Assembly: GCA_018613055.1 (NCBI GenBank) | Contig: JAGGQZ010000017.1 | Coordinates: 161,614-225,613 of the forward strand | Length of the DNA stretch: 64,000 nt | DNA from: Chryseobacterium sp. ISL-80 | GTDB lineage: Bacteria; Bacillota; Bacilli; Bacillales; Cytobacillaceae | Direction of reading: 5' to 3' | In this document: positions 34,101-43,275 of the stretch, one piece after another | How the letters are laid out: each line of letters opens with the position of its first letter | Position numbering within the stretch: the stretch's first letter is position 1 | Position numbers and translations under genes: made by a program | Notes under the pieces: model-generated | Seen by the model: the letters and a program-made list of their open reading frames with translations, nothing else | What the model was told of the DNA's origin: nothing | Database searches by the model: none

Positions 34101-34627
34101 GGATTATCGTCACCATCATCCTTGAACACGTTTGCATTCACATATGGCATCGGCGCGTCATCCAGCACTTCATCCAGGTAATCCAGACCATAGTTGAATT
34201 CATGGTTGCCGACTGTAGCCGCATCATAATCCAATAGTTCCATAGCTTCAAAGACCGGATGCATTTCACCGTCTTCCAGTACATCAACCTTGGCTTTATA
34301 GTCTCCCAGCGGATTTCCCTGGATCAAGTCTCCATTATCAAAAAGGAGATTATTTTTCCCTTCTTCTTCAGCCCTTGCCTGCTTAATCAGGGTAGCCGTC
34401 TTGGCCAGACCAAATTCGTTCGTTGATGCATCTTTGTAATAATCATAGTTATATAAATGTGTATGAATATCAGTAGTCCCCATGATTCGCAGCTGTACTT
34501 CATGTTTTCCTGCTTTATCAGGCTTACCTGCCGCAAATGACTTATAAGAAACAGGTCCTGCCAATACTGACAATGCCATTGTCGTAGCAACAACGGTTTT
34601 TCCTAACTGGCGCAAAGGCTTCTTCAA
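31157..34627 (-). CDS. yfkN: YfkN-type bifunctional 2',3'-cyclic-nucleotide phosphodiesterase/5'-nucleotidase
   Basis: 1156 residues: signal peptide (to about 32) and two complete metallophosphatase/5'-nucleotidase modules. Module 1: MGTTDIHTHLYNYDYY, LFDNGDLIQGN, VGNHEFNYGLDYL, GHNHLTFPG. Module 2: GINDFHGQLD, LLHAGDAVGAS, VGNHEFDEGVEEM, GGHNHAFTN, then a nucleotide-binding domain (NLVADSMRWQTGTDFAFMNS, GGVRADI). It hydrolyses extracellular nucleotides for phosphate and nucleoside salvage. Compared with B. subtilis YfkN (wall-anchored, longer) it ends without an LPxTG-type tail, so it is probably released or held non-covalently. Confidence 0.93.
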   Translation of the reverse strand: MKKPLRQLGKTVVATTMALSVLAGPVSYKSFAAGKPDKAGKHEVQLRIMGTTDIHTHLYNYDYYKDASTNEFGLAKTATLIKQARAEEEGKNNLLFDNGDLIQGNPLGDYKAKVDVLEDGEMHPVFEAMELLDYDAATVGNHEFNYGLDYLDEVLDDAPMPYVNANVFKDDGDDNPENDENYFKPYTIFNKKVTDNSGKTQVIKVGVVGAVTPQILQWDKANLDGKVITKDIVKSVEAQIPKMKEEGADIIVALSHSGIGDEKVVEMEENAAYDLSLVDGIDAIITGHNHLTFPGDFKNLPGVDAANGTINGVPVVMAGNWGNQLGVMDLTIAKEKGKWNVKNSKAELRAIYDKATKTPLVDADKEILEAVKEDHEGTVDYVRQPVGETDADIHSYFALVQDDPSIQIVTNAQKWYVEKQVKGTPDENLPILSAGAPFKSGRGGVSDYTYIPKGTIAIKNVADLYLYPNTVSTIKIKGSDVKEWLEMSAGQFNQIDEDITTEQPLINPKFPVYNYDVIDGVTYEIDVTEPAKYDDKGNLVDADANRIKNLQYNGQPIDLEQEFLVVTNNYRATGTFPGVKNQTAVEMYPDENRQAIIDYIREVGTIDPSADNNWSFAGVSKDLNVTFNSTPDAQNALPESGLINYAGEAANGFAKYQLHLPIGLQLLGINDFHGQLDTYNSKINAGGVDYLAAYLKEREATNPNTLLLHAGDAVGASSPVSALLQDEPTIKILNELGFDAGTVGNHEFDEGVEEMLRLIDGGSHPKTVDKYGEFEGADFPYVAANLVYKETGENVLDPYKVIDVNGIPVGVIGVALSDTPSIVIPSAVTDVKFTDEAEAINRYTEELKAQGVETIVVLAHNPSTSNPDGSNAGEELVEIAQNVDDEVDVLLGGHNHAFTNTKVDGKIVVQSYSSGTAFSDVDLLINPVTKDVMVGKSEIVTTYRDQIQPDAEIKAMLDSYVADVAPILNEVIGTTPSYISRDTSAAGESAMGNLVADSMRWQTGTDFAFMNSGGVRADIDQGEITWKEAFTVQPFGNDLVKMNVTGEVIKTLLEQQWGSKVRIMPISGLKVTYDDSRAAGDRIVSITKNDGTPVEMDKTYSITVNNYMAGGGDGYAILATITDKQIDVVDLDALVNYIKAHGEVNPQIEGRVTKLN

Positions 34628-34920
34628 GAAAATCCATCTCCTTAATAATTAATTTGGTAGCATACGAGTTTAATTATAGTAGGATTCATGTAGAAGGAAA
34701 TGGACTGATAGACCTGACTTTTCTAAACTTTTTGTAAAATTCGAGCTATTTAATAGGTAATATTTACTTACTTTTGCGGAAACCCCTCGATATATGTCGG
34801 CAATTGCGAATATTATAATTATCTATTTTTCCGCCAAAAGGACTACAATTGATTTATAAGATTGAAACAATCATAGAGTGGTAATGTATTTGTAGAACCT
34901 TTTCGAGGAGTGTTGATAGA

Positions 34921-35973
34921 GTGAAAGAATTATTAAAAGAATTGATCCTGATTGACAGCTCCACCATGGAAGGGGCCAATCAGGCAGTCGAGTTTTGCAG
35001 GCAATGGCTGATTGAGCAAGAATTGAAGCCAAGTTTGATTGAGAATAATGGGTATAAAATGCTCGTATGTGAGATTGGCGAAGGCGATAAAACAATCGTA
35101 TGGAATGGCCATGTAGATGTTGTCAGCGGAAAAAAGGAGCAGTTCATCCCCATTGAGAAGGATGGAAAACTCCACGCCAGGGGCGCAGCCGATATGAAGG
35201 CTGGTGTTGCCGCGATGATGGTCGCAATGAAGGAATTACGGGATCAGAAACCTGGTGTCAAAATCCAGCTGCAGATTGTCTCTGATGAAGAAATCGGCGG
35301 GCAAAATTGCACAGGCTACCTTGTCGAAAATGGCTATCGTGGGGATTTCGTGATTGCCTCGGAACCAACCCAGCTCGGAATCGCCCTTCAGGCAAAAGGT
35401 GTCTTAAGACTTGAAGTCGAAGTGAAAGGAAAATCAGCTCATGGCAGCCGTCCATGGGAAGGCGAGAACGCAATCGTCAAAGCCTATCAGGTTTACGAAA
35501 AACTTCTTCAATTACCTTTTACAAAAGAAAGCTCGGAATTTTACCAATCGCCATCTATTAACCTTGCTATCATCTCAGGCGGTGAAGTTTTTAATAAAGT
35601 GCCGGATCGGTGCATCATGTCCCTTGATATCCGCTATCTTCCGGGCCAAAAACCTGATACCATCATCCAGCAGATCGAAAGTATTTCGGATGGTAAAGTT
35701 ACTGTTGGATTAAAGGGAATCCCTGTCGCGACAAAACCTGATAATCCATTCATATCCCAGCTAAAACCGGTCTTGGAAAAGCATATCGATGGTGAAGCCA
35801 TCCTATTTGGCCAGCACGGTGCAGCAGACACCCAATTTTTTGCAGCCCATGGAATCCCGGCAATTGAGTTCGGCCCAAGTGGAGCGAACTGGCACGGTGA
35901 CGATGAATTTGTATTGCTGGAATCGCTTGAAAAATATAAAGAGATTTTAATTGATTATGTTAAAACCTACTGA
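34921..35973 (+). CDS. M20 family ArgE/DapE-type deacylase
   Basis: 350 residues, GTG start ten bases after GGAG. M20 dizinc motifs: WNGHVDVVSG, HARGAADMKAGVAAMM, SDEEIGGQNC, IASEPTQ, and C-terminal FGQHGAADTQFF and FGPSGANWHGDDEF. A dimerisation domain sits in between (KGKSAHGSRPWEGENA). It resembles acetylornithine deacetylase/succinyl-diaminopimelate desuccinylase-like proteins. Monocistronic, with no arginine or lysine genes nearby, so substrate cannot be fixed. Confidence 0.85.
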   Translation: MKELLKELILIDSSTMEGANQAVEFCRQWLIEQELKPSLIENNGYKMLVCEIGEGDKTIVWNGHVDVVSGKKEQFIPIEKDGKLHARGAADMKAGVAAMMVAMKELRDQKPGVKIQLQIVSDEEIGGQNCTGYLVENGYRGDFVIASEPTQLGIALQAKGVLRLEVEVKGKSAHGSRPWEGENAIVKAYQVYEKLLQLPFTKESSEFYQSPSINLAIISGGEVFNKVPDRCIMSLDIRYLPGQKPDTIIQQIESISDGKVTVGLKGIPVATKPDNPFISQLKPVLEKHIDGEAILFGQHGAADTQFFAAHGIPAIEFGPSGANWHGDDEFVLLESLEKYKEILIDYVKTY

Positions 35974-36000
35974 AAAAGACAGCCACCCGGCTGTCTTTTT
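35973..36000. terminator. Bidirectional terminator
   Basis: AAAAAGACAGCC/GGCTGTCTTTTT stem, shared by the M20 gene and the convergent M50 gene. Confidence 0.9.
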
Positions 36001-37243
36001 AACTGCTAAAACGATATTTCTTCGTCCATGAAAAAATCAATAACCCCAAAACTAAAACGATTTGCAGCAAAAAGACAACCGAGTCCCAAAAACGAAGACT
36101 ATTCACCGGCTCAATAAAGCCCGGCAACATAATATCGTTTACCGCGAAAATCACTTGCGGTATGTAGTAGTAGACGGTGATGGCGATGGTTAAGAGGATG
36201 CCGGCCAGGTAGAAACCTGCATATGTACGGACAAGCCCTTCCTCACCGTCGAATGTTTCCGTTTGCGGTACCTGCAAAAAGGGAAGCCACTGCGCCAGGA
36301 AGTTCCGTCCATTTTCCATCAAGTTATAACAGCCCGTCTTATTCTCAATCACATAGTAAAGATCCGTTTTCATAAAAACAGCAGCCTGATACACCAGGCG
36401 AATGAACGTGTCCAGCACCACCAGCTTCAATAAACCCATGATGAGCGAATCTTCACTTGTAAACATTTGAGCCAGCAACGCCAGAAATAACACAACAAAA
36501 TCAAAATACATCCCCGCGAGATAAAGCCTATTCCGCCTTTCAGCCGGCAGCTTCCAGACCTGCGACATATCTGTTTCCAAAACCACTAAAAAGAGCCGAT
36601 GTCCGATTTCAATCTTAGCAGGCAGCCCTTCTGACCTGACCGCCAGGACATGGCCGAATTCGTGGAGAAGGACAAGAAAAAAAGTAATCACCAGCCATGC
36701 AATAATATTTTGCAGCATGAGATCAAAAGCAAAGATATCGGAGTAGTGAGGGAATAATGCCGGGTTGTATAGGATTAAAGCTATACTTGCGATGAGTAAA
36801 ATTAGATAAAGATTAGAGCTGAAAGAATTGAAGAAAAAACGGCCTAGATTTTTTGGAATCCATGAATAACCCGATTGGTCCTTCTTTGACGAACTTTTTA
36901 ACATTTCTTCACCGTTAATTTCGCTGACTAAGTCCAATTCCAGGAGTTGAGAGACAAAATCAAATAGTTCTATTTCTTCATCAGGAAATCTAACGGTCAA
37001 TTCTTTTTCCACATCATTAAGGGATTTTCTTTGATTTATTAGCTCGATAGCAACAATACATAGTTCGGGCATTTCGTAAAATTCACCATTCAATACATCT
37101 TCAACAATATAATGTTTTTGATCTTTTCGAATAGCTAGTTGTTTAAGTGTAACATGAGTTTCATAGGTAAGATCCATACCCATCACCTTATCAAAGTAAT
37201 AAAAAGGGGATGTTTCCAGAAACTTAACATCCCCCTCCTTCAT
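35999..37243 (-). CDS. PqqD-like/M50 membrane zinc protease
   Basis: 414 residues. Residues about 25-110 resemble a PqqD/RiPP-recognition fold (HYIVEDVLNGEFYEMPELCI, KSLNDVEKELTVRFPDEEIE). Then several transmembrane helices with the M50 site-2-protease motif HEFGHVLAVRSEG around residue 190 and a second conserved region MYFDFVVLFLALLAQ. This arrangement recalls B. subtilis YydH, the peptidase of a modified-peptide system. The start ATG overlaps the stop of the 21-residue peptide gene (TAATG), so the two are translationally coupled. Likely role: processing or export of that peptide. No radical-SAM enzyme is nearby. Confidence 0.78.
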   Translation of the reverse strand: MKEGDVKFLETSPFYYFDKVMGMDLTYETHVTLKQLAIRKDQKHYIVEDVLNGEFYEMPELCIVAIELINQRKSLNDVEKELTVRFPDEEIELFDFVSQLLELDLVSEINGEEMLKSSSKKDQSGYSWIPKNLGRFFFNSFSSNLYLILLIASIALILYNPALFPHYSDIFAFDLMLQNIIAWLVITFFLVLLHEFGHVLAVRSEGLPAKIEIGHRLFLVVLETDMSQVWKLPAERRNRLYLAGMYFDFVVLFLALLAQMFTSEDSLIMGLLKLVVLDTFIRLVYQAAVFMKTDLYYVIENKTGCYNLMENGRNFLAQWLPFLQVPQTETFDGEEGLVRTYAGFYLAGILLTIAITVYYYIPQVIFAVNDIMLPGFIEPVNSLRFWDSVVFLLQIVLVLGLLIFSWTKKYRFSS

Positions 37244-37308
37244 TATTGTTTAGAAAATGGACACCACCAGCAGGTTGTTTTAATTTTGTTTAGCTTACGG
37301 ATTTTCAT
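37243..37308 (-). CDS. 21-residue CWWC peptide, candidate modified peptide or pheromone precursor
   Basis: ATG-initiated 21-codon ORF with a strong ribosome-binding site GAGGAGGTGAGGG lying in the end of the HD-GYP gene. The start overlaps the HD-GYP stop (ATGA) and the stop overlaps the M50 start (TAATG). The N-terminal half is basic (MKIRKLNKIK) and the C-terminal half is TTCWWCPFSKQ. The double coupling and placement before a PqqD-M50 protease make it a good candidate precursor peptide. It is too hydrophilic for a standard signal peptide. No known family was recognised. Confidence 0.7.
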   Translation of the reverse strand: MKIRKLNKIKTTCWWCPFSKQ

Positions 37309-38507
37309 GCCCTCACCTCCTCTACACAATTATGTTTTTGAACAAAATGATCTTCATTCCATTCTGAACTCTTATGGAATGCAGCCCATTCTGGAAAAAC
37401 TTCCTTAAACTTTTCAACAAGTTCAGGATCAAATTGCGTACCTTGACCTTCTATTATCCTGTTGTACGCCACGTCAAAAGGCATGGCTGAACGATAGGAT
37501 CGAGAGGATGTCATAGCATCGAAAGCATCCGCAATGGATACTACTCTTGCTGAAAAAGGAATTTCATTTCCTTTTAATTGTTCAGGATATCCCTTGCCAT
37601 CCCACCTTTCGTGATGAGATTTGATAATATCAATACTGTCTCCTAATCCATTCACCTTAACAATAGCTTCTGCCCCTACCGCTGGATGTGTTTTAATAAT
37701 CTCGTATTCTTCTTTTGTCAATTTTCCAGGCTTCATAAGTATTGAATCAGGGATATTCACTTTCCCAATATCATGTAATAAACATGCATATGTAAAGGAA
37801 CGCAGTTGATCTTTTGTAAATCTGCCAGTAGATTCAGCTAGTGAGTTTGCATAGTAAGCTACTCTTTCGCTATGACCCCTGGTATAAGGGTCCTTTAACT
37901 CAAGTGTTGCAATTACACCCTTAACAATTCCAGATAATTGATTATCATAGGATTCTTTAATAGCTTTCACATATCCTTGATATCTTCTTAAAATTATGAA
38001 CCCTAATATCGATAGGATTATAATTACTGCTATCGGGAATAAAACTACGGTTGTATTAAGTAATAGTCCTATGTATGAGTATTTAAAAATAGTTCCAAGT
38101 GAAACCGTCCAAAAAAAAGCAGTATTCACAAAAATAGGCGCAAAGAGTATGAGAAACACCTCAACGATATTTCCCCCGTCATAGGCTACATCATTGCTTA
38201 AGTATGTTACTGAATCATTGAGTATTGTAATTGCTATAAATCCCAGAAAAAAAATAAACTTAACTGAATAAAGTTCCCCTTTTTTCACCAATAGATACAC
38301 ACCAGGTAATAACATTAGGATTAAAAGATGGTAATAATATCTATTGTTCGAGAAAATTAAAACATCCTTGTGCGTAACATAAGTCGGATTTATGTAATAG
38401 TAGAAAATCTCAAAGGAAATGAACAATATATAAAATAAAGTTATAAACCATTTTAATGCTCTTTTTTCCTCATGATACAAAGATGGCTCTTCAAAAGAAT
38501 TCTGCAT
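37305..38507 (-). CDS. HD-GYP phosphodiesterase with membrane sensor domain
   Basis: 400 residues. Residues about 20-190 hold six hydrophobic helices, followed by a short linker and an HD-GYP domain: HSERVAYYANSLAES, CLLHDIGKVNIPDSIL, KTHPAVGAEAI, IKSHHERWDGKGYP and IADAFDAMTSSRSYR. HD-GYP proteins hydrolyse cyclic di-GMP or related dinucleotides. The membrane domain is clearly paralogous to that of the histidine kinase at 38734 (for example VEVFLILFAPIFVNTAFFW against LEVYFILFSPMFVSKKFFW). First gene of a three-gene operon. A candidate Spo0A box lies upstream. Confidence 0.88.
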   Translation of the reverse strand: MQNSFEEPSLYHEEKRALKWFITLFYILFISFEIFYYYINPTYVTHKDVLIFSNNRYYYHLLILMLLPGVYLLVKKGELYSVKFIFFLGFIAITILNDSVTYLSNDVAYDGGNIVEVFLILFAPIFVNTAFFWTVSLGTIFKYSYIGLLLNTTVVLFPIAVIIILSILGFIILRRYQGYVKAIKESYDNQLSGIVKGVIATLELKDPYTRGHSERVAYYANSLAESTGRFTKDQLRSFTYACLLHDIGKVNIPDSILMKPGKLTKEEYEIIKTHPAVGAEAIVKVNGLGDSIDIIKSHHERWDGKGYPEQLKGNEIPFSARVVSIADAFDAMTSSRSYRSAMPFDVAYNRIIEGQGTQFDPELVEKFKEVFPEWAAFHKSSEWNEDHFVQKHNCVEEVRA

Positions 38508-38636
38508 GATACTACCTCTTTTTCTGTCTACAAACCTATGTATTTTTCCTTCATATCGCCATTATTCTTGACATATTAATAGTTTTATTGAAATAAGAAT
38601 AAAATGAGCATTATGACCTAGACCAAATTAGCAAGA

Positions 38637-38643
38637 TTCGACA
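38637..38643. promoter_or_regulatory. Candidate Spo0A box
   Basis: TTCGACA (TGTCGAA on the minus strand) about 130 bp upstream of the HD-GYP start. A 7-bp match is weak evidence on its own. Confidence 0.3.
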
Positions 38644-38662
38644 ATTTTCTCCATTATAAACC

Positions 38663-38694
38663 AAAAGGACTATTTAATAAAATAGTCCTTTTGG
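38663..38694 (-). terminator. Terminator of the histidine kinase gene
   Basis: AAAAGGACTATTTT/AAATAGTCCTTTT stem, separating the kinase gene from the HD-GYP operon. Confidence 0.85.
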
Positions 38695-38733
38695 TTTATT
38701 TATTGGTTTATTTTTCATTATACAACTATAACT

Positions 38734-39960
38734 TTACTTGGCGATGGGTAAAGATATAATCACAGTTGTTCCTTTTTCTAACTCACTTTCAATATTAAAA
38801 GTACCTTCATGTTCTTCAATAATTTTTTTCGTGACCATCAGGCCCAGACCATTTCCATTTTGCTTGGTTGTATAAAATGGTTCTCCTAATTTAGCGAGTT
38901 TTTCAGGAGGAATCCCGCACCCTTCATCCCTTACTGAAATGAAAGCTCGATCACTCTTAACTTGGGAATCTATTTTCACCATTCCCCCATCTGGCATTGC
39001 TTCTATCGCATTTTTAATTAAGTTGATAAATACCTGCTTTATTTGATTTTCGTCACATAAAAGTACAATAGTATTATCAACGTCATATTCAATATTAATT
39101 TCTTTCCTGTGAGCATGCGGATCAATAACGGATACAACATACTCGGTAATCCCCATTAGACTTTTCGGCGTTTTAACAGCTGTATTTGGTCTTCCTAAAA
39201 TCAACAAGTCATTAACGATCGAGTTAATTCTATCAATTTCATTTAACATAATTGGGTAATACTGTTCATCGCCCTTATCCTTTTCTTGCTGTAATTGAGT
39301 GAAACCTTTCAAAGAGGATAAAGGGTTTTTAATTTCATGAGCAATTGCTGTTGCCATTTGACCAATAACCGCCAATTTTTCTTTTTGTCTCATATCCTCA
39401 AACATTGAGGTAATAGCATTTATATATGATTGGAAACGAGTAAGTAAAATCCAGGCAATTATGCCAATAAAGAGAATCAAGCCTAGCGCGAATAGGACCT
39501 TAGCAGATTGGTAAATCAAACCCACTGTTAGATACTTAAGAGAAAAGCCCAATGTAATAATCCAAAAGAATTTTTTACTGACAAACATAGGCGAAAACAA
39601 AATGAAATATACTTCAAGAATATGGCCACTATTGAACTCTCGATTAGTACCCCAATAAATTAAAATATTATTGATCGTGTCCAATATTATAAAAGCAGCG
39701 AAATACATATATTTCACTTTTTCAGGATGCCCCTTTTTAATTATGAAGATGGCCAAAGGAAGCAAAGCAAACAATAGCAAATGAAAATAGAACCCCAGCC
39801 CTCCATATGGCAACCCTGTCTTTACATTGTTAAAATATGGATATATATAATAAACTGTGAAATCATAAGGAACTAATATAATATAAAAAGTCCACAAAAA
39901 GAACTTGACTGCTTTTACTTCTTCATAAACTAAAACCGAATTTTTTTTGAATGGTTCCAT
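38734..39960 (-). CDS. Membrane sensor histidine kinase (sporulation-kinase-like)
   Basis: 408 residues. Six hydrophobic N-terminal helices (paralogous to the HD-GYP protein next door), then HisKA with ATAIAHEIKNPLSSLKGFTQ and HATPase_c with FINLIKNAIEAMPDGG, RDEGCGIPPEK, and GNGLGLMVTKKIIEEHEGTF. No linked response regulator gene, as in orphan sporulation phosphorelay kinases (KinA-E), whose kinase core it resembles. Signal unknown. Separate transcript with its own terminator. Confidence 0.88.
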   Translation of the reverse strand: MEPFKKNSVLVYEEVKAVKFFLWTFYIILVPYDFTVYYIYPYFNNVKTGLPYGGLGFYFHLLLFALLPLAIFIIKKGHPEKVKYMYFAAFIILDTINNILIYWGTNREFNSGHILEVYFILFSPMFVSKKFFWIITLGFSLKYLTVGLIYQSAKVLFALGLILFIGIIAWILLTRFQSYINAITSMFEDMRQKEKLAVIGQMATAIAHEIKNPLSSLKGFTQLQQEKDKGDEQYYPIMLNEIDRINSIVNDLLILGRPNTAVKTPKSLMGITEYVVSVIDPHAHRKEINIEYDVDNTIVLLCDENQIKQVFINLIKNAIEAMPDGGMVKIDSQVKSDRAFISVRDEGCGIPPEKLAKLGEPFYTTKQNGNGLGLMVTKKIIEEHEGTFNIESELEKGTTVIISLPIAK

Positions 39961-40102
39961 ACGGAATCTCCTTAAATCTTAAAACTTGATAGCCTTATTA
40001 TAGCAGGATGTGTCACATCTTGTTACTTTTTGTCTAATCAGGAAGGAGATTTTCAATAAATATTTTTTATAGATTGAAAGGAATCTTTTATGGAATAAAA
40101 AT

Positions 40103-40128
40103 GGACCAGGCGATTAATTGCCTGGTCC
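40103..40128 (-). terminator. Terminator of the SCP2 gene
   Basis: GGACCAGGC/GCCTGGTCC perfect stem, TTTTTAT on the minus strand. Confidence 0.9.
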
Positions 40129-40136
40129 ATCCTGCT

Positions 40137-40493
40137 TTATGCTGTTTCACTCAGATTGTATTCATTTAAGATTCCTTCAAGTTTAAGCGCGAGTCCCATG
40201 CTGCCCTGGATTTTGAGTTTCCCTGTCATGAAGGCTGCTGTTCCGTTCAGCTTGCCCATGATCATTTTCTTGAAGTTTTGGTCTGACAGCTTCAGGGTGC
40301 AATCAGGTGTTGCTTCTGTTCCTTCAACAACGCGTGCCGTTCCATTTGTGATCAGCAATTGGAATGTTCCGCTGTCATCACCCGTGATGTCATATTGATA
40401 GACCGTATTCATACCTTGAATCGGTTCAGGGTTTTCCGTCATGACCTTTTCGATTTCCTGCCACACTTCTCTGATTGATTTGTTTTCCAACAT
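40137..40493 (-). CDS. SCP2 sterol-binding domain protein
   Basis: About 118 residues with the SCP2 fold pattern: YQYDITGDDSGTFQLLITNG, GTEATPDCTLKLSDQNFKKM, IMGKLNGTAAFMTGKLKIQG, SMGLALKLEGIL. SCP2-like proteins bind lipids or acyl chains. ATG at 40493 is preferred because AGGGGTG lies seven bases upstream; the ATG at 40526 has none. Monocistronic. Confidence 0.87.
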   Translation of the reverse strand: MLENKSIREVWQEIEKVMTENPEPIQGMNTVYQYDITGDDSGTFQLLITNGTARVVEGTEATPDCTLKLSDQNFKKMIMGKLNGTAAFMTGKLKIQGSMGLALKLEGILNEYNLSETA

Positions 40494-40610
40494 CCTTGCC
40501 ACCCCTATCAATCTACTTTTTTCCATCTTACCTGACTGAAGTCCTATGAGGCAATACGATAATGAAAGTGTTCAGCAAAAAGTCCCTACATTTATAGGGT
40601 AGCTTTTAGT

Positions 40611-41402
40611 TTAACTTCCTGTACTTGCAAAAGCTTTAAGCCCCCTGTTCCAGAAAGCATAGGCAATCACACAGCAAACAACTGCAGCAACCGGAGTCCA
40701 GAGCGCGAACTCCTTGTAGCCAGACTTATCGATAAAATAAGCTGCCGGGAAAAATGCTGTGAACCCGTAAGGTATGATCCATGTCAGGAACATGCGGATT
40801 CCCTTGTGATAAATCGTCAGCGGATATCTCGCAAAGTCACTGAGGTTAAAGACTGCCCATACAATAGGAAGACTGTCGATCATCCAGTAGCTGAATGTCG
40901 CGAAAAATAGGTTGATCGCCACGAAAATTAATCCGGATGAAATGATCATGATGACCAGCATCGCAATTTCCGTCGCTCCCCAAACGAGGTCAAGCTGTGG
41001 AATCGCTGTTCCGAGAATGATCAACCCGATGATCAGCTGGCCAAAGCCATCCTGATGGAGACGATCCGCCACAACATGGAACAAAGGATTGACCGGCCTG
41101 ATCAGCAACCGGTCCAGCTTTCCTGGCCTTATATACTGCCAGCCAAGTGTCCAAAGATTATCAAAGAAAATCTGGTGGATCGACCGGCCCGTCGCCGCTA
41201 TTCCGTAAATGAACAATATCTCATAAAACGACCAGCCATTGATCTGCTCAATGTGGTCGAAAACCACTTTTACAAAAAAGATCGAAGCGAACTGCTCGAG
41301 CATAACCGAGGCGACACCGATCAAGAAATCGATTCGGTACTCCATCATCACCTTCATATGGCTCTTCGCAAACTCCCAATATAATCTCGTATAACGACGC
41401 AT
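40611..41402 (-). CDS. ABC-2 type transporter permease (DUF990-like) 2
   Basis: 263 residues, about six transmembrane helices, with LYWEFAKSHMKVMMEYRIDF at the N-terminus and VVFDHIEQINGWSFYEILFI. It belongs to the ABC-2 permease group that occurs as pairs with a separate ATPase. It is 11 bp downstream of the first permease gene, forming a three-gene exporter operon with the ATPase. Substrate unknown; related systems export antibiotics, lipids or peptides. Confidence 0.85.
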   Translation of the reverse strand: MRRYTRLYWEFAKSHMKVMMEYRIDFLIGVASVMLEQFASIFFVKVVFDHIEQINGWSFYEILFIYGIAATGRSIHQIFFDNLWTLGWQYIRPGKLDRLLIRPVNPLFHVVADRLHQDGFGQLIIGLIILGTAIPQLDLVWGATEIAMLVIMIISSGLIFVAINLFFATFSYWMIDSLPIVWAVFNLSDFARYPLTIYHKGIRMFLTWIIPYGFTAFFPAAYFIDKSGYKEFALWTPVAAVVCCVIAYAFWNRGLKAFASTGS

Positions 41403-41413
41403 CCAATCGCCTC

Positions 41414-42202
41414 CTATCCTCCGAAAATCGTAATCTGTTTAATCGCCTGCGACCAGATTACCCTAACCAAAACATATAAAGACACGAGCCAGAAAAGCTG
41501 GACTCCCAATGCCATATAAGCGTCCGTCCCGCTTATGAGGCCTGAATAAATCGAAACCGGCAGATAGACCATCGCCTGGAACGGCAAGAATTCCGTGATG
41601 ATTCTCAGCCAATCAGGGAAAAGCGTGATTGGAACCAGCGCCCCGGAGAAAAACGTAATCAAGGATTCCTTCAGCACCCTGACTCCCCAAACATTGACCG
41701 TCCAGAAAGCAAGCACACCGACAAGGAAATCAAAGAACGTACCGATCCAGATCCCTACTAATGCACTCAGGATAAATAAAATGATCGTCTCAGGTGATGT
41801 TGGAAAGCTTAAATCCATGAAGAAGTAAGCAATCAGCACCATCGGCAGTGTCCCCTGGATTAAATACATGATTTTCGATCCAATATCAACCGCGAATAGT
41901 TTAAAAATCATATCGTACGGACGCATCAACTCGATCGCGACCTGGCCGTCCTTAATATTTTCCGCAAGCTCATTGCCGACACCGCCGACAAACCCCTGAA
42001 GCATCATCGCAATGACAATATACGTCAGCATCGTTTCCAGATTGATATTTTCAATCGTCGTCTGGTTTGCGTAGACCGCCTGCCAGAAGAAGTAAATAAT
42101 CAACAGCCTCATTACGGCCGAGGCGGTCCCAGCCCAGTACCAGGCAGAATAAGCCGTGTTCTCCTGCATCCGCCCTTTAGCTATTTGCCAATACTTTCTC
42201 AT
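41414..42202 (-). CDS. ABC-2 type transporter permease (DUF990-like) 1
   Basis: About 262 residues from ATG 42202 (MRKYWQIAKGRMQENTAYSA), preceded by GGGGGAGAG; the ORF extends further upstream but would overlap the ATPase gene. Around six transmembrane helices. MRPYDMIFKLFAVDIGSKIM is typical of the family. It overlaps the end of the ATPase gene by 26 bp, indicating coupling. Together with permease 2 it forms a heterodimeric channel. Confidence 0.85.
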   Translation of the reverse strand: MRKYWQIAKGRMQENTAYSAWYWAGTASAVMRLLIIYFFWQAVYANQTTIENINLETMLTYIVIAMMLQGFVGGVGNELAENIKDGQVAIELMRPYDMIFKLFAVDIGSKIMYLIQGTLPMVLIAYFFMDLSFPTSPETIILFILSALVGIWIGTFFDFLVGVLAFWTVNVWGVRVLKESLITFFSGALVPITLFPDWLRIITEFLPFQAMVYLPVSIYSGLISGTDAYMALGVQLFWLVSLYVLVRVIWSQAIKQITIFGG

Positions 42203-43202
42203 GCTCTCCCCCCTGTTCCTGCTTGTTGTACAGTTCCTCAACGATCGTCTCAATCTTCGGGTCTGCAATATTCAAATCGCCAATTTCATACATGCCCATC
42301 ATTTCTGAAATGACGAACGAGCTTTTAACAGTCTCATGGTCAAAAGACAGACTGACCTTCGTTTCTTCTTCGTTCGGTAAAATTTCCACCTGTCCATTGA
42401 GTGGATCTGGCAACACAAATTTTTCCTTGTCAGCCAGTTCAAAGTGGATCACACGTTTTTGCCCAAATTGCTTTTTGATTTGCTCCAGCCCGCCATCGTA
42501 CAAAATCGTACCGCCATCAATAATGATGATCCGGTCGCAAATTTCCTCAATGTCCTGCATGTCATGTGTAGTCAGCAGCACTGTTGTGCCCCAGCGCTGA
42601 TTCATTTCTTTTATAAACTTTCTGATTTTCACTTTTACCGCAATATCAAGACCGATCGTTGGCTCATCCAGGTAAACAACTTTAGGTCTATGAAGAAAGG
42701 CCGCAGCCAATTCACAGCGCATTTTTTGTCCGAGGGAAAGCTGTCTGACCGGAATGCTGAGCAATGGTTCCAGGTTCAGTACCTCAGTAAACATTGCGAT
42801 TGTTTCTTGATATTCCTGCTCCGGAATCTCATAAATATGTTTTAACAGATTATAGGATTCACGAACCGGAATATCCCAGAACAGCTGAGTCCGCTGCCCG
42901 AAGACCGCCCCGATATTCACGGCATTCTTCTGACGGTTTTCATATGGCACCAGCCCATTCACCGTCACCTTACCAGAAGTCGGTGTCAGGATTCCCGTCA
43001 GCATCTTAATTGTCGTCGACTTACCCGCACCATTCGCACCAATATAGCCAACCGTCTCCCCCTGTACAATCGTAAAATTAATCCCCTTCACCGCATGCTT
43101 AGTTTCATACTTGCGGTTAAAAAGCGATTTGACCGCACCCTTAAGACCCTGGTCACGCTTCACCAATTTATATTCCTTTTTCAAATTTTCAACAGTAATC
43201 AC
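42177..43202 (-). CDS. ABC-2 exporter ATP-binding protein
   Basis: About 341 residues. Walker A GYIGANGAGKSTTIKML, signature QLSLGQKMRCELAAAFLHRP, Walker B VVYLDEPTIGLD, H-loop LLTTHDMQDIEEICD, and a C-terminal extension (about 240-341). The start is taken as GTG 43202 (VITVENLKKEYKL), nine bases after GGAG; the ORF is open further upstream. The gene follows a small ORF and a strong terminator, so it may be controlled by readthrough. Confidence 0.88.
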   Translation of the reverse strand: MITVENLKKEYKLVKRDQGLKGAVKSLFNRKYETKHAVKGINFTIVQGETVGYIGANGAGKSTTIKMLTGILTPTSGKVTVNGLVPYENRQKNAVNIGAVFGQRTQLFWDIPVRESYNLLKHIYEIPEQEYQETIAMFTEVLNLEPLLSIPVRQLSLGQKMRCELAAAFLHRPKVVYLDEPTIGLDIAVKVKIRKFIKEMNQRWGTTVLLTTHDMQDIEEICDRIIIIDGGTILYDGGLEQIKKQFGQKRVIHFELADKEKFVLPDPLNGQVEILPNEEETKVSLSFDHETVKSSFVISEMMGMYEIGDLNIADPKIETIVEELYNKQEQGGEHEKVLANS

Positions 43203-43241
43203 AATATCACTCTCCAAGAACATACATTCGATTTTTAGGCA

Positions 43242-43275
43242 CAAAAAAACCACAGACATCCCAGTCTATGGTTTA
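43242..43275 (-). terminator. Terminator between the CLYC peptide and the ABC-2 operon
   Basis: AAACCATAGAC/GTCTGTGGTTT stem and a T7 run on the minus strand, 34 bp after the peptide stop and about 40 bp before the ATPase start. Confidence 0.88.

Follow-up and report, generated by a model that had tools for sequence, protein, structure and literature searches.

A short CWWC peptide gene between HD-GYP and RRE-M50 protease genes in Bacillales, with a variable tail that follows the HD-GYP sensor domain

In the ComQXPA system of Bacillus subtilis, the precursor and the receptor co-vary, and the peptide ComX is prenylated. Eep and similar site-2 proteases of Gram-positive cocci are M50 proteases that yield short hydrophobic pheromones; the substrates of Eep are lipoprotein signal peptides, it is not known to carry an RRE domain, and the pheromone receptors are cytoplasmic. 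For ComQXPA, excerpts of one study describe distinct communication groups, the pherotypes (PMC4408185). Excerpts of another name EpeP, TglG and TmoG as M50 proteases acting on ribosomal peptides, and present EpeX/EpeP (YydF/YydH) as a pair in which the membrane M50 protease is thought to cut and export the ribosomal peptide (PMC10885120). Here, we describe a locus in a 64,000-nucleotide stretch of DNA (the window; contig JAGGQZ010000017.1, positions 161,614 to 225,613, assembly GCA_018613055.1, deposited as Chryseobacterium sp. ISL-80 and placed in the Cytobacillaceae by GTDB). In it, a 21-codon gene for a peptide with the motif CWWC lies between the gene for an HD-GYP protein with a MASE12 membrane sensor domain and the gene for an M50 protease with an N-terminal RRE/PqqD-like domain. 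As judged by comparing the sequences of related loci, the peptide gene is under selection and tied to the HD-GYP and RRE-M50 genes, and its variable tail follows the HD-GYP sensor.

The locus resembles ComQXPA in its small precursor, its adjacent gene for a candidate membrane receptor, and the joint diversification of precursor and sensor. It differs in that the candidate receptor is an HD-GYP phosphodiesterase and not a kinase, that the processing enzyme would be an RRE-M50 protease, and that no prenyltransferase is found among the recurrent neighbours. As to the kinase/regulator pair of ComQXPA, the kinase here is adjacent in only 33 of 64 scanned loci and does not track the tail. We do not regard the locus as a member of ComQXPA, given that its sensor is no kinase and that nothing like ComQ is among the recurrent genes. 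The likeness to the epipeptides lies in the protease, for which the model NF058609 matches three of 39 members. However, the radical-SAM epimerase of the epipeptide operon is missing: in line with the initial annotation of this DNA, no radical-SAM enzyme is found in the window, and none of the 16 matches in the genome is on contig C9. The EpeX precursor is presumably unrelated in sequence to the CWxC peptide. The NCBIfam model matching most protease members is that of the daptide metalloprotease, NF041824 (21 of 39, best match 1.9e-10), but the window protease reaches only 19.1 bits against a cut-off of 300, and no other daptide enzyme was recognised nearby. Among the papers listed in searches of an open-access library, none was seen to describe an operon of HD-GYP, CWxC-peptide and RRE-M50 genes; in the excerpts of PMC7190382, 'MASE12' is part of locus tags.

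Distribution and conservation of the peptide gene

The short open reading frame (ORF) that the initial annotation had pointed out is real. It reads MKIRKLNKIKTTCWWCPFSKQ, is preceded by a strong ribosome-binding site (AGAGGAGGTGA), and starts within the stop codon of the HD-GYP gene, with the overlap ATGA; the HD-GYP and HEFGH M50 ORFs on its two sides are likewise as described there. By eye, similar ribosome-binding sites precede the peptide genes of relatives, and the peptide start overlaps the HD-GYP gene in 80 of 148 scored loci.

Whether the ORF is kept between the HD-GYP and M50 genes, a first doubt raised in the initial annotation, was examined in 81 regions, 80 from relatives and the window itself, which cover 82 of the 111 places with a protease match in the family. 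The HD-GYP gene precedes the protease gene in 77 of these regions, and the peptide lies between them in all 77 operons, with the form [MLV][KR][IV]R[KP]Lx..CW[WIV]C followed by a tail. The remaining four regions hold distant M50 paralogues (25-29% identical) without HD-GYP. Within the window's genus the protease was found in 20 of 21 genomes, and within the family in 108 of 193 genomes and 13 of 25 genera. The peptide pattern matches 103 of the 193 genomes, once each, and a reversed control pattern gave no match. Protease and peptide occur together in 102 of the family genomes, the protease only in six, the peptide only in one, and neither in 84. Three of the six protease-only genomes have variant leaders (MRIRKL, MKIRPL and MKIRRL), so that the peptide is present, two have distant paralogues only, and one (G086) has a 55-residue protease remnant without HD-GYP or peptide; the sole peptide-only genome stops at a contig edge.

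A scan for the peptide motif that ignored gene context, with one genome per species, gave at least 119 loci. An HD-GYP gene precedes the peptide in every locus whose upstream sequence exceeds 300 nt (116 of 116), and an M50 gene follows it in every locus whose downstream sequence exceeds 400 nt (114 of 114). Among the 80 matches listed by name are Neobacillus, Mesobacillus, Oceanobacillus, Virgibacillus, Gracilibacillus, Ornithinibacillus, Lentibacillus, Sporosarcina, Solibacillus, Alkalihalobacillus, Paenibacillus and others. The module is patchy, because just seven of 398 genomes match in an even sample of the class. The CWWC pattern had no exact match in viral_contigs, and plasmids gave only distant protease relatives (28 records, all below 60% identity).

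Some loci are interrupted or decayed. At about 6550-7800 of L244 (G086), kinase sequence runs into the protease remnant, as if HD-GYP and peptide had been lost together. In L102 (G113), ~1.9 kb of inserted DNA, in which a frame resembling reverse transcriptases of the group II intron type was recognised by eye, splits the peptide from the protease, and both are retained. The protease gene of L051 (G020) is broken in two, next to an HD-GYP gene and a peptide that look intact.

For the codon analysis 196 loci were gathered, window included, with 140 peptide sequences among them, and reduced to 152 distinct loci. The proportions of nonsynonymous (pN) and synonymous (pS) differences are 0.096 and 0.811 for leader codons 2-10, and 0.019 and 0.870 for the CWxC codons. 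For tails of 3 to 9 codons, pN is 0.39-0.64 and pS 0.62-0.78, giving a pN/pS of 0.62-0.98 by length class, although synonymous change is near saturation and the ratios are rough. The C, W and C of the core are invariant in all 152 loci, with W at the third position in 146, I in four and V in two; one further genome, G102, reads CWLC. The tail has 3-10 residues and is partly constrained, its second residue being F, W, Y, L or I in 149 of 152. The peptide thus splits three ways, into a constant leader, an invariant core and a variable tail. The further doubt of the initial annotation, that the codons might show no purifying selection, is dispelled: on these codon counts the leader and CWxC core are under strong purifying selection and the tail is not. 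With a conserved leader, a variable core part and an RRE protein, the locus has features of the type known from ribosomally synthesised and post-translationally modified peptides. The two Cys of CWWC may close a small disulfide ring, or an enzyme encoded elsewhere in the genome may modify the motif.

Peptide tail and HD-GYP sensor domain

If the tail is a ligand, it is expected to vary with its receptor. Partial Mantel tests were performed on 117 of the 152 loci, in which both proteins exceed 360 residues, and on a subset of 76 that also have a full kinase. With the HD-domain, RRE and M50 distances removed, the tail correlates with the MASE12 domain of the HD-GYP protein (r 0.274, p 0.002; 117 loci). 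In the same loci the correlation is lower for the HD domain (r 0.123, p 0.002), and not clear for either the RRE part (r 0.040, p 0.108) or the M50 membrane part (r -0.129; -0.014 in the 76 loci). When tails were shuffled within clusters of close relatives only, the stratified p for MASE12 was 0.001, with a within-cluster r of 0.415 at finer and 0.382 at coarser clustering. The MASE12 domain of the kinase served as a control, being of the same domain type, in the same neighbourhood and equally divergent (mean distance 0.562 vs 0.574); in the 76 loci its r was -0.070, compared with 0.269 for the HD-GYP MASE12. Chromosomal distance does not explain the order of the correlations, since the HD domain and the RRE part are nearer to the peptide gene than MASE12. 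On trees of the 76 loci, the tail class changes 41 times for the HD-GYP MASE12, 45 for the HD domain, 49 for RRE, 52 for M50, and 51 and 49 for the kinase; broader tail classes give 26, 28, 38, 41, and 38 and 39 changes, respectively. In these comparisons tail similarity follows the HD-GYP MASE12, which is a pherotype-like pattern.

Pairs of loci with far MASE12 and close M50 have unrelated tails (mean tail distance 1.14; 65 pairs, 30 loci), and pairs with close MASE12 and far M50 have similar ones (0.41; 11 pairs, 17 loci). The tail distance is 0.40 for pairs close in both (61 pairs) and 1.00 for pairs far in both (5906 pairs). Loci L038 and L045 are an example: their M50 membrane parts are 6% different, their HD-GYP MASE12 domains 63%, and their tails are AFITI and ILL. 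At the DNA level the two are alike at the left end (identity 0.91 over 150 nt) and again across the M50 membrane part (0.92-0.97), and between these, from the kinase through the RRE part of the protease, identity drops to 0.47-0.77. Approximately unbiased (AU) tests were run on 38 loci. Four tail groups present in the MASE12 tree are rejected by the M50 data, with AU p values of 6.9e-6 for the IYVGK type, 1.5e-4 for the LW type and 1.2e-4 for the ILL type; for the PF/AF type the M50 value is 4.8e-42 and the MASE12 support 93, not starred. MASE12, in turn, rejects the pairing of L038 and L045 that M50 supports (AU p 3.5e-7).

Two other proteins were considered as partners of the peptide. The kinase as receptor is not supported, its MASE12 domain not tracking the tail. 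Nor do the Mantel tests or the pair comparison support the membrane part of the protease as the tail's partner.

The encoded proteins and their surroundings

The coordinates of the features are collected in Table 1. The predicted structure of the protease has a winged-helix RRE/PqqD fold fused to a site-2-protease fold (pLDDT 92), which bears out the PqqD resemblance and the fusion to an M50 HEFGH membrane domain proposed in the initial annotation. As in M50 site-2 proteases, the HExxH motif is within a membrane helix; H172, E173, G175 and H176 are invariant in 39 of 39 protease sequences, as are K270, T271, D272 and Y274 downstream. We take this conserved Asp to belong to the metal-ligand motif of site-2 proteases. 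The M50 profile gave no match when run against the sequences of solved structures.

Table 1. Features of the peptide locus in the window
Feature	Position	Strand	Basis
21-codon peptide gene MKIRKLNKIKTTCWWCPFSKQ	37243..37308 (start ATG 37306-37308, stop 37243-37245)	minus	ORF reading, conservation, selection
Conserved leader, residues 1-12, consensus MKIRKLxK[VI]KxT	37273..37308	minus	codon analysis
CWWC core, residues 13-16	37261..37272	minus	codon analysis
Variable tail PFSKQ, residues 17-21	37246..37260	minus	tail pN/pS; tracks HD-GYP MASE12
Ribosome-binding site region of the peptide gene (AGAGGAGGTGAGGGC), within HD-GYP 3' end	37309..37323	minus	sequence
Terminator-like hairpin GGGGATGTT...AACATCCCC (37206-37234) and TTTTT	37201..37234	minus	folding, z -2.68
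RRE-M50 membrane protease, 392 aa from conserved start	35999..37177	minus	ORF, alignment, structure prediction
RRE/PqqD-like leader-binding domain (predicted), protease residues 1-88	36914..37177	minus	
HEFGH zinc motif, M50 domain, residues 172-176	36650..36664	minus	alignment
MASE12-HD-GYP membrane phosphodiesterase (predicted), 400 aa	37305..38507	minus	ORF, Pfam, alignment, fold
MASE12 membrane sensor domain, HD-GYP residues 13-173, candidate tail receptor	37989..38471	minus	Pfam PF20971 3.5e-30; co-variation
HD-GYP catalytic domain, residues 200-363	37419..37910	minus	Pfam HD_5 1.2e-36
20-pair terminator-like hairpin after kinase gene, setting it apart from the HD-GYP-peptide-M50 unit	38656..38699		simple scan, listed on + strand
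MASE12 histidine kinase, no response regulator adjacent; common neighbour, outside universal core	38734..39960	minus	Pfam

The initial annotation had also proposed that the protease gene is translationally coupled to the peptide gene through TAATG. This does not hold. The ORF 35999-37243 is 22 codons longer than the version from the conserved start, and the extension opened by ATG 37243 runs through the hairpin and T-run. Among the 81 regions the protease frame begins at the peptide stop in the window only (in L035, L036 and L069 the ATGs are further in), and in-frame stops interrupt the extension region in five of 21 genus matches (L002, L003, L006, L010 and L016). The start common to relatives is the position equivalent to ATG 37177, most likely the true one. 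Because of the intervening hairpin, the relatives' shared start and the in-frame stops, coupling of peptide and protease is rejected. As far as the sequence can tell, the peptide gene is coupled to the HD-GYP gene and not to the protease gene.

The hairpin between peptide and protease is itself widespread. A stem of at least 7 pairs followed by a T-run was found in 132 of 147 loci compared with 186 of 735 mononucleotide shuffles; of the 152 loci, L051 and L102 were left out for too long a gap and three for lack of protease sequence. The motif GG[AG]TG occurs in 127 of 140 stems of at least 7 pairs, the other 13 having a different stem sequence. We read the hairpin as a partial terminator. A simple terminator scan, which covers loops of 3-8 only and does not list this hairpin, gave 11 terminator-like sites (4.1 expected). 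Rfam gave no riboswitch or other known RNA family nearby (positions 34500-42500, E up to 1).

The HD-GYP protein carries intact HDIGK and HHERWDGKGYP motifs; in 39 sequences the residues of the HD and HHExxDGxGYP motifs are invariant or nearly so. The nearest solved fold to its catalytic domain is PA4781 (E 1.7e-11), and enzymes for cyclic GMP-AMP (cGAMP) and cyclic di-AMP are also among the fold matches. As the genome has 13 GGDEF matches, cyclic di-GMP (c-di-GMP) is likely made. The protein is predicted to be a cyclic-dinucleotide phosphodiesterase, with c-di-GMP as the probable substrate, and its MASE12 domain has six helices in the predicted model. Of the scan loci whose upstream sequence exceeds 3 kb, 33 of 64 have the kinase as direct neighbour. 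Its best NCBIfam matches, none of which reaches its cut-off, are to models of the AtoS, KinD and ZraS types.

ORFs of at least 90 codons around the 196 loci formed 35 clusters present in at least six loci. Besides the MASE12 proteins and the protease, the commonest cluster occurs in 70 of 196 loci. Pfam searches with one representative of each of the 33 other clusters gave transporters, molybdopterin oxidoreductase, 4Fe-4S, Rieske, M20 peptidase, helicase and others; no peptide-modifying enzyme was recognised among these 33, nine of which have no Pfam match. In Neobacillus and some related genera (e.g. L130, L184, L225 and L226), M50 is followed by a membrane protein without Pfam match and by molybdopterin oxidoreductase, 4Fe-4S and Rieske genes; the first gene of this set follows M50 in 70 loci. 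Upstream of the kinase in the window's genus, at 40611-43259 of the window, two ABC-2 type membrane proteins and an ATPase are encoded beside an SCP2-like gene (40137-40526). A link of these ABC-2 genes with peptide export is possible.

Distant RRE-M50 paralogues, 24-30% identical to the window protease among the matches listed, have a ThiF-like adenylyltransferase as partner instead. ThiF-like genes are annotated beside them in a Priestia koreensis plasmid (L245) and a Streptomyces plasmid (L246), and were seen by eye in L098-L101, as one frame in L099. In the four family cases, L098-L101, neither HD-GYP nor a CWxC peptide was found. The pairing of RRE-M50 paralogues with ThiF-like genes suggests another peptide-type cluster family in Bacillales and Streptomyces. 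CPTC stretches beside the paralogues, considered as a second peptide family, were rejected as they are the ends of ThiF-like proteins.

Interpretation and alternative explanations

We lean towards a peptide signal that is processed by the RRE-site-2 protease and sensed by the membrane cyclic-dinucleotide phosphodiesterase. In the precursor, a cationic conserved leader (MKIRKLxK[VI]K) would be followed by the CWxC core, which is invariant, and by a tail specific to the strain. As the fold suggests, the leader may be bound by the protease's RRE domain. The site-2-protease domain would cut the precursor at the membrane and release or export the CWWC-plus-tail peptide. In agreement with the co-variation, the MASE12 domain of the HD-GYP protein encoded upstream may recognise the tail, which would alter the phosphodiesterase activity, probably towards c-di-GMP. 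The protease membrane part would be generic and read only the constant leader and core, in keeping with the lack of co-variation between the M50 membrane part and the tail. A hairpin behind the peptide gene would allow more precursor than protease to be made. Peptide and HD-GYP protein would form a ligand/receptor pair exchanged between strains. Evenly balanced, in our judgement, is the wider proposal of a so far undescribed pherotype system across Bacillales, in which the CWWC peptide, once matured, acts from outside on a one-component membrane phosphodiesterase, and signals between cells would thus reach c-di-GMP with no kinase, regulator or peptide importer; peptide and receptor would be swapped between strains as a cassette, the protease membrane part being generic. 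The combination of peptide signal or leader-core precursor, PqqD-type M50 protease and cyclic-dinucleotide hydrolase had been suggested by the initial annotation; conservation and selection support it, and only the translational coupling has to be given up.

Several observations weigh against a secreted, receptor-matched signal. The loci are related, so the pair counts are not independent, and the groups for the AU tests were picked after the distances had been seen. The exchanged block also includes the kinase and the RRE part, and the kinase moves with it though its sensor does not follow the peptide. Within clusters the HD domain correlates with the tail as well (r 0.208, p 0.002), and so does the RRE part (r 0.189, p 0.026; 76 loci), whose stratified p is 0.036 in the 117 loci (r 0.040) and 0.001 in the 76 (r 0.066). 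The MASE12 columns associated with the tail are spread over the whole domain and not confined to one face. Finally, no transporter is common to all loci, ABC-2 transporter clusters recurring in 21-37 of 196, and as none recurs throughout, export is a guess.

Secretion from the cell is the weakest step of the mechanism, and the main rival is a small regulatory subunit that stays inside: the unsecreted peptide would dock on MASE12 in the membrane, and the RRE-M50 protease would remove or trim it by regulated proteolysis. This would account for the gene linkage, for a peptide start that overlaps the HD-GYP gene in 80 of 148 loci, for the co-variation with MASE12 and for the lack of a common transporter. 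We nevertheless consider this unlikely, since a nearly unconstrained tail and the exchange of peptide and HD-GYP among close relatives resemble a specificity between cells, which a private subunit would not need. Far less probable is a ribosomal antimicrobial of the epipeptide or daptide kind, with production tuned by the HD-GYP sensor. The RRE-M50 proteins do resemble the daptide (21 of 39 members) and epipeptide (three of 39) maturation proteases, but beyond the trio and the MASE12 kinases no cluster occurs in more than 70 of the 196 loci, no peptide-modifying enzyme was recognised among the 33 (nine without Pfam match), and the tail pairs with the HD-GYP sensor.

The position of the Cys and Trp codons ahead of a terminator could also indicate a ribosome-stalling leader peptide that senses the amino-acid supply and attenuates the protease gene. 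The CWxC codons are a median of 29 nt before the terminator-like hairpin (139 loci), and upstream stretches can pair over at least 8 nt with its 5' arm in 21% of loci compared with 9% of shuffles; this weak excess of complementarity is the only sign of antitermination. Compared with amino-acid attenuation, however, it is the peptide sequence that is conserved: the leader amino acids are kept while their codons vary, the second Trp can be replaced by Ile, Val or Leu, the distance from CWxC to the hairpin ranges from 8 to 93 nt, and the tail co-varies with a protein domain. In L102, peptide and M50 persist despite the ~1.9 kb between them, and we rate attenuation as a still slimmer prospect than the antimicrobial. 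Least probable of all is a thiol or metal sensor, whose CWxC pair would bind metal or switch between disulfide and thiol and report the redox state to MASE12. Both Cys are invariant in all 152 loci, and redox-type genes (molybdopterin oxidoreductase, 4Fe-4S, Rieske) follow M50 in Neobacillus and some related genera; yet this gene set is absent beside M50 in other lineages, and redox sensing would not need a variable, receptor-matched tail.

If the favoured reading of a processed peptide signal is true, many genera of the Bacillales would share a new system of peptide communication, whose peptide gene may be too short to be picked up by routine annotation. Peptide signalling would be tied directly to the turnover of cyclic dinucleotides; the MASE12 domain would gain a candidate ligand, and RRE domains that are fused to intramembrane proteases a role. 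The natural pairs of tail and sensor types would then be ready for testing.

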